64,000 nucleotides of DNA. Source: Kineosporia succinea (GTDB lineage Bacteria; Actinomycetota; Actinomycetes; Actinomycetales; Kineosporiaceae). The notes beneath the pieces are model-generated. The model was not told the DNA's origin, did no database searches, and saw only the letters and a list, made by a program, of their open reading frames with translations. The position numbers and the translations under genes were made by a program. The first letter of the stretch is position 1, and each line of letters starts with the position of its first letter. Shown here piece by piece: positions 42,505-45,848 of this stretch. The stretch is taken from contig NZ_JAUSQZ010000001.1 in NCBI RefSeq assembly GCF_030811555.1, positions 992,001 to 1,056,000 on the forward strand, in the 5' to 3' direction.

Positions 42505-42738
42505 TCAGCCCAGCAGGTGATCGAAGTCGCCGTCCTTGGCCCCGAGGATCAGCGCCTCGATCTCCGAGCGTGTGTAGACCAGGGCCGGACCCTGCGGGAA
42601 CCGTGAGTTGCGCACGGCCACCTGGCCGTCTTGCAGTGCTGCCATCTCGACGCAGTTGCCCTGGGCCCCGCTGCGGGCGGACTTCTTCCACTCCGCGTTG
42701 ATCAGTTCCGCCGGCATCCCGTTGCGAAAGTGCGACAT
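42505..42738 (-). CDS. DUF397 protein of an Scr1/WhiJ-like locus
   Basis: 77 residues. The DUF397 signature is intact: INAEWKKSARSGAQGNCVEMA, then VAVRNSRFPQGPALVYTRSEIEALILGAKDGDFDHLL, read as two separate blocks. In Streptomyces such small proteins are partners, often antagonists, of neighbouring XRE/DUF5753 regulators (WhiJ-type or Scr1 loci). The ATG at 42736-42738 follows GGAGG. A minus-strand TATAGT (42812-42817) could be the -10. A TGCACG...CGTGCA dyad (42763-42784) lies between promoter and gene. Confidence 0.88.
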   Translation of the reverse strand: MSHFRNGMPAELINAEWKKSARSGAQGNCVEMAALQDGQVAVRNSRFPQGPALVYTRSEIEALILGAKDGDFDHLLG

Positions 42739-42762: not shown

Positions 42763-42784
42763 TGCACGTTCTTCTGCGCGTGCA
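42763..42784. promoter_or_regulatory. TGCACG-N10-CGTGCA dyad upstream of DUF397 gene
   Basis: TGCACG (42763-42768) and CGTGCA (42779-42784) are the half-sites of the perfect ATGCACGTGCAT palindromes upstream of the ATPase gene, here 10 bases apart. It is a likely operator of the locus regulator. Confidence 0.45.
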
Positions 42785-42961
42785 TTTGCGCGAGCAGTCG
42801 GGCAGTTCAGGACTATACGGGCAGGTCGGGCCGCCTGACCAGTCCGAATTGCACAGAGCGTTGACGGATGGCAACACGGAGTCAGGGGACGTTGTGCGCA
42901 CAAGAGGGGTAACACCCGCAACAGCGGACAAGATGGTGCGTGAGCCGCGAAAAGGCGGGGC

Positions 42962-43818
42962 TCAGGACTCCGCGAGCAGTCGCTGCAGCGTGCGCCGGGT
43001 CATGTCCGGAGGCAGGCTGTCGACCGTGAGCCGGTCCATGTTCTGCGTGTACCGCTCCACATGGTCGGGCTTGTCGAGATAGTGCGCGCTGGTGAGGTGC
43101 TCGACGTAGACCGTGTCGGGCAGTTCCGGCTCGGGGAACCGCAGGATGGTGAAGGCCCCACCGTCCACCACGTGCCCACCGAACTTGAACGGCATGACCT
43201 GCAGCGTCACGTTCGGCAGCGTCATCATGTCGAGCAGGTGCTCGACCTGCTCACGCATCACCTTGGCACCACCGACCGGGCGGTGCAGCGAGCCTCGTCG
43301 ACCACGGTCCAGAAGTGGGGCGGGCTGTCGCGCCGCAGGATCGCCTGGCGCTTCACCCGGAAGTTCACCCGGCGCTCGACCTCGGCCACGGTGGCGTTGG
43401 GAGCACCCGAGCTGACCATCGCCCGGGCGTACGCCTCGGTCTGGAGAAGGCCCGGCAGGAACTGGATCTCGTAGCTGCGGATCATGCTGGCGGCCTCTTC
43501 CAGGCCGACGAACGTCTCGAACCAGTTGGGCAGCACGTCGTCGTAGCTGTGCCACCAGCCGGGAGCGTTCGCCTCGCGCGCGAGAGCCACCAGCATCTCG
43601 CGCTGGACCTCGTCGTCGACACCGTAGAACTCGAGCAGGTCGGCGATGTCGCGGTCCTTGAATCCGACCCGGCCGAGTTCGAGACGGCTAATCTTGGACT
43701 CGGACGCGCGGATGCGGTAGCCCGCTGCCTCACGGGTCAGATTCTTCGACTCCCGCAGACGTCGCAGCTGGGCGCCCACCAGAATGCGCCGGACCGTAGG
43801 TCCACCCGGCGTCGTCAC
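42962..43818 (-). pseudogene. XRE/DUF5753 (Scr1-family) regulator, frameshifted
   Basis: The first part (43818 to about 43290) encodes an HTH (VGAQLRRLRESKNLTREAAGYRIRASESKISRLELG, residues about 14-48, linked) and the start of DUF5753 (GLEEAASMIRSYEIQFLPGLLQTEAYARAM). It runs off frame at VVDEA and stops at about 43261. The remainder (RPVGGAKVMREQVEHLLDM ... HVERYTQNMDRL) continues in another frame to 42962. Restoring one base near 43290 gives DEASLHRPVGG, the normal family sequence. This could be a true pseudogene, a sequencing error or programmed frameshifting. The start is GTG, with GAGG upstream. Confidence 0.85.
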
Positions 43819-43990: not shown

Positions 43991-44002
43991 ATGCACGTGC
44001 AT
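43991..44002. promoter_or_regulatory. Palindrome ATGCACGTGCAT, site 1
   Basis: Perfect 12-bp palindrome, likely operator of the neighbouring XRE regulator. It is identical to the site at 44031-44042. Confidence 0.6.
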
Positions 44003-44030
44003 CCGCACGAACCAATCGGATACTCTCGAG

Positions 44031-44042
44031 ATGCACGTGCAT
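44031..44042. promoter_or_regulatory. Palindrome ATGCACGTGCAT, site 2
   Basis: Second identical 12-bp palindrome, about four helical turns from the first, so both could be bound on the same DNA face. Confidence 0.6.
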
Positions 44043-44130
44043 TTGGCGGTAGCGTTTGCACCGGCACAACGCGTGGCTCAGGGAGACCGGTCCGGCGAAC
44101 GGCCGAACTCCCCGGGGTCGGGAACGAGGT

Positions 44131-44754
44131 ATGGGGCCTGTCGTGGTGATTGCACAGACGCAGTCCGCGGACGTCGCGCCGTCCGCGAAGCAGAGCACTG
44201 CCCAGAAGAACGCTGCTCCCCGGAGCACCGAGCTCGACCTCGTCCTCGAGGCCGGCTCGGCCAGCTGTGTCCTGCCCGGCACCCCCCACGCGGTTCCTCT
44301 GGGGCGGGCCATGGTGCGGCGCGGGCTGGCCCATCTCGGCGCCGAGTCGGTCTCCGACGACATCGCGCTGGCCGCCACCGAACTCATCGCCAACGCCATC
44401 GAGCACGGAGTGCGTGACTGTGCGCGTGAGATGACCGCCCGCACCGGTGGGCCCGACGAGCTCCAGCGCCGGCGTCCCGACAGCGTGCGCATCAGCCTGG
44501 TCAGCAGCGGTGCCCACGTGGTGCTGTCGGTGACCGACCCGAGTCCGCTGCCGCCCGTCCGGCGCCCGCGCGACATGCTCGCCGGCGGTGGCCGCGGTCT
44601 GCAGCTCATCGAGTCGCTGAGCCTCTGCTGGGGCTGGACCCTGCTCGAGGAGCAGGAGGGGCAGCGCGCCCCCGGCAAGTCGGTCTGGGCCATGTTCCCG
44701 AAGGTCGCCGCCGAGAAGCCGGCGCCGCAGATCCGCATCCAGGGCGCGGCCTGA
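44131..44754 (+). CDS. ATP-binding protein, HATPase (anti-sigma-kinase-like)
   Basis: About 207 residues. The GHKL/HATPase fold is shown by LAATELIANAIEHG (N-box) and SVTDPSPLPP with AGGGRGLQLIESLSLCWGW (G-boxes). There is no receiver or sensor domain. In actinomycetes such proteins occur beside XRE/DUF5753 regulators and DUF397 proteins and may act as anti-sigma-type kinases or binders. The ATG at 44131 is preceded by a poorly placed GAGG; GTGs at 44143 and 44146 are alternatives. The gene is divergent from the XRE gene, with two palindromes between them, and is followed by a strong hairpin. Confidence 0.85.
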   Translation: MGPVVVIAQTQSADVAPSAKQSTAQKNAAPRSTELDLVLEAGSASCVLPGTPHAVPLGRAMVRRGLAHLGAESVSDDIALAATELIANAIEHGVRDCAREMTARTGGPDELQRRRPDSVRISLVSSGAHVVLSVTDPSPLPPVRRPRDMLAGGGRGLQLIESLSLCWGWTLLEEQEGQRAPGKSVWAMFPKVAAEKPAPQIRIQGAA

Positions 44755-44840: not shown

Positions 44841-45704
44841 TCAGACGACCCGGCCCACCCCGCACAGCACGCGGATCGGCAGGTAGGGCTGATCGTCGCG
44901 CCAGTGCGTGACGTCGACCAGACCCGGCCCGATCAGCTCGGTGCCGTCGAACAGCTGCTCGACCTGCGAGCGCGACCGCACGACGAGCGGCGTGGGTGAG
45001 GTGTCGTAGACCTTCTCGAGCGTGGAGACGTAACCGGGCTCCATGCCGTCGGAGCAGATGGCCGAGATCGCGATGCAGCTGCCCGGCGGGAGCAGGCGCC
45101 GGTACTGCTCGACCACTTTGATCGCCATCTCGCGACGCACGAAGTGCAGTACCGCGATGAACAGCAGGCCGACCGGGCGGCCGAGATCGATGTGGGCGCG
45201 CAGGCGCGGGTCTTCGAGCAGTGACTGGGGGTGGCGCAGATCGTGGTCGAGCGCCAGCACTCCCGGGCGAGGTGCACGCAGGGCCCGGTTGTAGGCCATC
45301 ACGATCGGGTCGTTGTCGATGTAGGCGACCCGCACGCCGGGTGCCTTCACCTGGGCCACCTCGTGCACGTTGGGCGAGGTGGGGATGCCCGCGCCGAGGT
45401 CGACGAACTGGTCGATGCCCTGTTCGGCGAGCAGGTCGACGGCCCGCACCAGGAACCCCCGGTTCGCGGAGGCGACGGCGGTGAGGTCGGGGATGACGCG
45501 GCCGATCTCGTTGACCGCGCGCCGGTCGACCTCGAAGTTGTCCTTGCCGCCGAGCGCGAAGTCGTACATGCGGGCGGCGCTGGGCTTGGAGATGTCGATC
45601 TCGGGCGGGATCCAGTCTTCGTCGGACGCCGTCCACGACCAGTCGACGGAGAGACCGGACTGCGATTCGCGCCCGGTCTGCGGTTCGTGCGGCTGGGTCG
45701 TCAT
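44841..45704 (-). CDS. DUF574-type SAM-dependent methyltransferase
   Basis: About 287 residues. This family is frequent in Streptomyces, often near Scr1-type regulators. Markers are KPSAARMYDFALGGKDNFEVD, the SAM motif FVDLGAGIPTSPNVHEVA, VAYIDNDPIVMAYNRAL and GLLFIAVLHFV. Substrates are unknown. I chose the ATG at 45702-45704 (GGAG nine bases upstream); an ATG at 45746 is possible. The gene is the outermost member of the Scr1/WhiJ-like locus and ends at the bidirectional terminator. Confidence 0.88.
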   Translation of the reverse strand: MTTQPHEPQTGRESQSGLSVDWSWTASDEDWIPPEIDISKPSAARMYDFALGGKDNFEVDRRAVNEIGRVIPDLTAVASANRGFLVRAVDLLAEQGIDQFVDLGAGIPTSPNVHEVAQVKAPGVRVAYIDNDPIVMAYNRALRAPRPGVLALDHDLRHPQSLLEDPRLRAHIDLGRPVGLLFIAVLHFVRREMAIKVVEQYRRLLPPGSCIAISAICSDGMEPGYVSTLEKVYDTSPTPLVVRSRSQVEQLFDGTELIGPGLVDVTHWRDDQPYLPIRVLCGVGRVV

Positions 45705-45848
45705 CGTCGGCGTGCTCCAGTCTCGATCCGCCAGGGTCCCATTCACCCTAATTGCCGGTACGCACCGGTCTAAATGGTGGAAAACCCCTCACTATGCTTT
45801 CCAGGTCCGCACTTGAGTCCCGGCGGGCACGGGCGGTGGGGCCGGTAC

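Follow-up and report, generated by a model that had tools for sequence, protein, structure and literature searches.

A TGCA palindrome pair as candidate operator of a WhiJ-type regulator in a BldB-AbaA gene cluster of Kineosporia and other Actinomycetes

Which protein would bind a pair of identical palindromes lying between two divergent genes of Kineosporia succinea, and which genes would it control from there? The pair lies in the window, by which we mean the whole stretch of 64,000 nucleotides that was analysed. The original prediction described two perfect 12-bp palindromes with centres 40 bases apart between divergent genes, and both 12-mers were indeed exact, with centres at 43996.5 and 44036.5. 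They sit between the gene of a HATPase and that of an XRE-DUF5753 regulator. The features of the locus, with the names used for them below, are as follows.

42505 to 42738, minus strand: DUF397 (BldB-like) gene (Pfam DUF397, E 4.9e-18)
42763 to 42790, no strand assigned: putative third operator copy, upstream of DUF397, with TGCA/TGCG half-sites at 42763, 42775, 42781 and 42787
42812 to 42841, minus strand: promoter-like TGGTCA-18-TATAGT of DUF397 (consensus match; 1 found, shuffles 0.2)
42962 to 43818, minus strand: XRE-DUF5753 regulator gene, read in two overlapping frames, with the break within about 43258-43300
43991 to 44002, no strand assigned: candidate operator palindrome 1, ATGCACGTGCAT, on the regulator side
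44031 to 44042, no strand assigned: candidate operator palindrome 2, ATGCACGTGCAT, on the ATPase side
44052 to 44061, minus strand: flanking degenerate half-site GTGCAAACGC (regulator sense), 19 bp from palindrome 2
44131 to 44754, plus strand: gene of a HATPase_c_2 protein (AbaA-like, anti-sigma-like; Pfam HATPase_c_2, E 4.6e-10), divergent from the regulator gene

The domain matches of the regulator were distributed over its two frames (HTH_31, 1.6e-15; DUF5753, 1e-25 and 1.2e-30), giving the N-terminal XRE helix-turn-helix followed by DUF5753 that defines the WhiJ-type regulators. With DUF397 and HATPase_c_2 both above the Pfam cut-off beside it, the locus belongs to the WhiJ-BldB-AbaA clusters, which are present in many copies per Streptomyces genome and steer development and antibiotic production. 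The regulator is intact as a frame of 289 codons in four of five congeneric genomes, and in the fifth (G004) it is broken too, at another codon. Because of its frame break the regulator of the window may be dead in this strain, unless the break is an assembly error. Assignment to a family rests on the intact Kineosporia mesophila ortholog, standing in for the broken window protein, which scored 400.5 bits against the Sco1979 family model of NCBIfam (NF058600, cut-off 350); all nine further members of the regulator clade described below that were compared with this model scored between 353.9 and 434 bits. A profile search of solved structures with the regulator returned no match at E 0.01. An AlphaFold2 model based on 32 aligned orthologs (mean pLDDT 63, pTM 0.49) was good in the HTH part and poor in the DUF5753 part.

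We looked at whether the palindrome is frequent across the genome, which would speak against a link to these genes. The full 12-mer ATGCACGTGCAT had two exact matches in the whole genome (one contig, 8,065,021 bp), both of them the window pair, and exactly two in each of the five congeneric genomes, always at the corresponding pair, while a reversed-pattern control gave 0, 0, 0, 1 and 0 matches in these congeners. All 12 exact 12-mers of the six Kineosporia genomes were thus located at the regulator/ATPase pair. Looser matching was less discriminating: with up to one mismatch the 12-mer had six places in the whole genome versus nine for the reversed control, and within the window alone its three matches at up to two mismatches were not unusual, since 21 of 100 shuffles reached the same count. 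The 10-mer core TGCACGTGCA is by itself not rare either, because its 26 genome copies compare with 41 for the reversed control. By a crude ORF and GC3 test 22 of the 26 copies lie inside coding-like ORFs, and the four outside them are the window pair and two lone sites. Both cores are invariant at nine loci of the family (the window, the five congeners and three other genera), and the spacing of the palindromes is 40 bp throughout the six Kineosporia genomes and 39, 38 and 39 bp in the three other genera, so that the "about four helical turns" of the original prediction is a loose description. We also searched with a 44-position profile built from 39 sites, excluding the window's own and including those of K. 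mesophila. In this genome the two window palindromes were its best two distinct places (E 0.0009 and 0.0016), and the DUF397 copy came at E 0.07, behind a place at 5207971 (0.06); in three Streptomyces-like genomes (G072, G104, G202) the top two distinct places were the regulator and DUF397 sites. Since the full 12-mer occurs solely at this locus in each of the six Kineosporia genomes, the circuit looks mostly local.

The putative operator is spread over the class and is not a trait of one lineage. A GTDB scan found 435 relatives, and of the best 80 of these 435 matches 77 had TGCACGTGCA no more than 620 bp upstream of the regulator; of the three exceptions one was cut by a contig end at 132 bp (L124) and two were without TGCACGTGCA (L136 and L139). 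A class-wide search gave matches in 103 of 296 genomes. From these, 25 of 30 automatically taken loci had TGCACGTGCA within the examined stretch, from which it was absent in L152, L156, L161, L164 and L173. It was present in all 20 further stretches picked by family and in 7 of 12 later loci, chosen mainly as additional family members within a genome; two of the remaining five have TGCAATTGCA and three have no TGCA-N2-TGCA whatever. These loci are not independent of each other, many of them being from Actinomadura.

We used the variation in gene order among relatives to find out which gene the element accompanies. Genes were found with three small models over 130 loci (L065-L194), and the flanks were searched for TGCA-N2-TGCA, with any two central bases allowed, up to 450 bp upstream of the transcription unit. 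A DUF397 gene was identified in 108 of the 130 loci and had TGCA-N2-TGCA upstream of its transcription unit in 106. In regulator-DUF397 operons the element was upstream of the regulator without exception (73/73), and in other arrangements it was upstream of DUF397 in 33 of 35 loci, the two exceptions being L066, which has TGCACGCGCA there, and L194, whose flank is short. The element was retained where DUF397 lies ahead of the regulator (L107, L115, L118, L184 and L185) and where it is inverted downstream (L070, L145 and L147), and DUF397 genes in divergent orientation were seen in L155, L157, L162 and L163. Streptomyces-like loci (L175-L183 and L193) have the order DUF397, ATPase, regulator, with TGCACGTGCA both at the DUF397 promoter and in the ATPase-regulator gap. 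There are also loci where DUF397 has a site though the regulator has none near it (L044-L047, L136, L173 and L186); in L044-L047 these DUF397 sites are variant forms, TGCATATGCA among them, and the ATPase and DUF397 genes of L136 and L173 each have their own array. The element is also present in several families where no ATPase was seen close to it. Since it is found there across gene orders, the DUF397 transcription unit is the constant neighbour of the element. The comparison shows that the putative operator remains upstream of this unit and, in most lineages, also in the regulator/ATPase intergenic region. The window itself has the TGCA-N2-TGCA upstream of the DUF397 unit that marks the putative operator of the Sco1979-family cluster, the DUF397 copy being one base off and the regulator/ATPase pair exact. 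The idea that the palindromes link the regulator, DUF397 and HATPase genes was therefore well founded: an operator-like element is kept at these genes in many families and several gene orders. The clade members L045, L046 and L047, which have no TGCACGTGCA near the regulator, share CGATCATGATCG or a close variant of it some 115 bp ahead of the regulator gene.

The surroundings of the palindromes contain further half-sites in a regular phase. Among 38 loci hand-picked for diversity, a second TGCA-N2-TGCA (at least 7 of 8) was found near the 58 main palindromes at -18 in 19 cases and at -12 in nine; the degenerate half-site at 44052-44061 of the window has the same position as the TGCA-N2-TGCA at -18/-19 in relatives. 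Exact TGCA tetramers on the upstream side were in 6-bp phase with the palindrome in 44 of 69 instances, and at eight offsets we counted 51 in-phase TGCA versus a shuffle mean of 1.6 and maximum of 5 (this phase count used 57 sites instead of 58, with a copy inside a gene, L069, omitted). The phase was weak on the downstream side (12/37).

The half-sites of the third copy, spaced 12, 6 and 6 bp, are in the same 6-bp phase. Its core is degenerate in the window (TGCGCGTGCA, one base off) and intact, as TGCACGTGCA, in two of the five congeners and in the three other genera of the family. The original prediction had noted half-sites split by 10 bases at 42763-42784; TGCACG-N10-CGTGCA is literally present there, but a degenerate palindrome copy with in-phase half-sites is the better reading of this element. 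This copy is directly downstream of the predicted -10 of DUF397, the promoter positions being consensus matches only, and the TATAGT is kept in congeners. In the Streptomyces-like loci the DUF397 element is upstream of a TATGAT, a placement that would suit activation.

The same prediction had suggested that the site is the operator of Scr1-type regulators in this lineage, and this assignment could not be upheld. In the genome TGCACGTGCA was found upstream of none of ten other DUF5753 loci, two of which have a different TGCA-N2-TGCA upstream, and at 15 other DUF397 loci neither TGCA-N2-TGCA (0/15) nor TGCACGTGCA (0/15) was found, which rules out a general operator of all DUF5753 regulators. TGCA-N2-TGCA was likewise absent from the 17 paralogs of relatives, a control set that includes four clade members whose regulator has no site next to it (L044, L046, L049 and L050). 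Moreover, the intact ortholog belongs to the Sco1979 family, and the element extends over the class.

Presence of the site instead follows a single branch of regulators. In a tree of 70 proteins (77 rows before identical ones were dropped, with about 40 of 78 loci hand-picked for diversity) all 40 carriers, 33 with a near and seven with a more distant site, fell into one 47-row clade with 100/100 support, and the site was carried by none of the 23 proteins outside it. Seven rows within the clade are without the site, and five of them (L044, L045, L047, L049 and L050) form one subclade, in which the HTH is very similar yet the regulator has no adjacent site. Within the clade the third HTH helix is mostly RASESKISR(L/M)ELGRV; in paralogs it differs. 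In Streptomyces-like paralogs (L278, position 2797; L282, positions 916 and 994) TGCAATTGCA replaces TGCACGTGCA, which suggests that in a paralogous branch the half-site stays constant while the centre varies.

Because the element is kept beside the same three genes in many families despite changed gene order, the regulator encoded by one of them very probably binds to it. Taken as one joint reading, we consider it likely that the adjacent XRE-DUF5753 regulator, a WhiJ paralog of the Sco1979 family, has the palindromes as its operator, and that this operator consists of TGCA half-sites arrayed in 6-bp phase, the strongest unit being TGCA-CG-TGCA. A regulator dimer would use its HTH to bind the palindrome, and additional dimers would occupy the phased half-sites. 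So bound, the regulator would repress its own gene and the DUF397 gene; we infer repression of the latter because the element lies downstream of TGGTCA-18-TATAGT. The divergent anti-sigma-like ATPase gene would be under its control as well, by repression or activation, and the BldB-like DUF397 protein might close the loop by altering the activity of the regulator, as was suggested for BldB and the WhiJ paralogs of Streptomyces venezuelae. More tentatively, and with somewhat more doubt than confidence, we propose that the Actinomycetes have retained a single DNA code, in which TGCA half-sites surround TGCACGTGCA in 6-bp phase, and that it serves the most widespread WhiJ-BldB-AbaA cluster as a private operator. 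Its primary conserved target would be DUF397 and not the regulator's own gene, the regulator would polymerise along the array according to its balance with the DUF397 protein, and paralogous branches would insulate their circuits by swapping the two central bases (TGCAATTGCA).

Other explanations differ in which protein binds and in which gene responds. The regulator might act chiefly as an activator of the ATPase gene from the paired palindromes, with repression of DUF397 or of itself minor or absent. This is possible, if on the unlikely side: the ATPase start codon lies 89 and 129 bp downstream of the ends of the palindromes, WhiJ9 has been proposed as an activator of iosA that acts from repeats 113 bp ahead of the start site, and abaA paralogs are strongly up in a bldB mutant (PMC10294661), but the DUF397 copy downstream of the predicted -10 suits repression, and an activator of the ATPase gene fits poorly with the families in which no ATPase was seen near the element. 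It is improbable that a different, global regulator of the cluster occupies the site and the XRE protein binds elsewhere. The 26 core copies in the genome and the extra copies away from the cluster in some relatives (L239, L243 and L245) would agree with such a regulator, whereas the position of most core copies in coding-like ORFs, the confinement of the full 12-mer to the locus in six genomes and the tracking of one regulator clade argue against it, as does the fact that the site recurs within a single genome beside several members of the family (L285, L286 and the site at 5461016 of G191).

DNA binding by the DUF397 protein in place of the XRE protein appears very improbable to us, even if the element tracks the DUF397 gene more faithfully still than the regulator gene; BldB, itself a DUF397 protein, was concluded not to bind DNA (PMC10294661), and none of the 15 other DUF397 loci of the genome has such a site. 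We give scarcely any credence to chance, or to a hairpin, terminator or methylation site unrelated to the regulator. The sequence is palindromic and its near-match count in the window alone is unremarkable, but a perfect 12-bp palindrome leaves no loop for an RNA hairpin, the sole terminator-like match of the region lies elsewhere, and retention across families beside the same genes already contradicts the idea.

An operator of this kind, WhiJ-type and at a BldB-AbaA cluster, is already known. WhiJ9 binds in the gap between iosA and its own gene, is needed for the activation of iosA and represses itself, whiJ9 transcription rising 2-fold on its loss, and BldB joins BldB paralogs (PMC10294661). 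The present locus resembles that system in having a WhiJ-type XRE regulator beside a BldB-like DUF397 gene, a site in the gap shared with a neighbouring gene, repeated half-sites and, as we would predict for this cluster, autorepression. It differs in that the gene opposite the regulator is iosA there and an ATPase gene here, and in that the WhiJ9 site consists of three direct repeats CGXXCTCAAC, as against TGCA-N2-TGCA palindromes and TGCA half-sites in 6-bp phase; between 43819 and 44130 we detected no match to the WhiJ9-type operator CGNNCTCAAC with up to one mismatch. SCO1979 of S. coelicolor, to which PMC12565409 and PMC10364602 refer, is cited as autoregulatory, binding upstream of its own gene (PMC12565409), and the K. 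mesophila ortholog falls into its family by NCBIfam, a match at the protein level; the letters TGCA are absent from the main text of PMC12565409, whose supplement has 223 motif clusters. The S. coelicolor cluster SCO3421-SCO3423-SCO3424 (PMC4255298, PMC6767563) has the same gene content, going by its description in these papers. The order DUF397, ATPase, regulator of the Streptomyces-like loci fits SCO3424-SCO3423-SCO3421, and the TTA codon in 10 of their 11 ATPase genes fits the description of the gene next to SCO3421 (PMC4255298). No operator is given for this cluster in the passages of PMC4255298 and PMC6767563 used here, and SCO3421 is absent from the list in PMC10364602 of XRE genes followed by DUF397. 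Scr1/Scr2 (SCO4441/SCO4442) are likewise an XRE-DUF5753 and DUF397 pair, but the ortholog of the window regulator is named for the Sco1979 family, Scr1 being compared by description; the passages of PMC6262351 used here give no operator.

A literature search for the string TGCACGTGCA gave, among the papers listed, none on actinobacterial regulation by title, and one for WhiJ and operator, from 2021, gave unrelated papers only. In the literature searched, as far as the passages used go, a binding site is defined for one regulator of WhiJ type (WhiJ9), and the operator sequence, array form and reach described here were not found, although the SCO1979 site (Zhu 2020) may be in print. Our analysis provides a candidate operator at the level of bases for the most widespread clade, private to that clade, and points to the DUF397 gene as the target kept most constantly. 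Short DNA would make binding by the regulator, the effect of the DUF397 protein on it and cross-talk with paralogs testable.

Some further copies and neighbours were observed along the way. In two Streptomyces-like genomes ATGCACGTGCAT directly precedes the probable start of a gene encoding a protein with MTSSTSDPISFDDSVRSLLDG as its first residues (L243, position 2994; L245, position 3026), possibly an extra target. A tandem array TGCATATGCACGTGCATATGCACGTGCA is located between two ORFs away from the cluster in G134 (L239, 2970-2997; profile E 1.3e-5). In G259 a second Sco1979-family regulator (353.9 bits) has a full 12-mer on either side, the two being separated by about 2.2 kb (L240, positions 2970 and 5194). 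In the window, an S-adenosyl methyltransferase (Methyltransf_19) gene at 44841-45746 on the minus strand adjoins the ATPase gene and lies outside the element.
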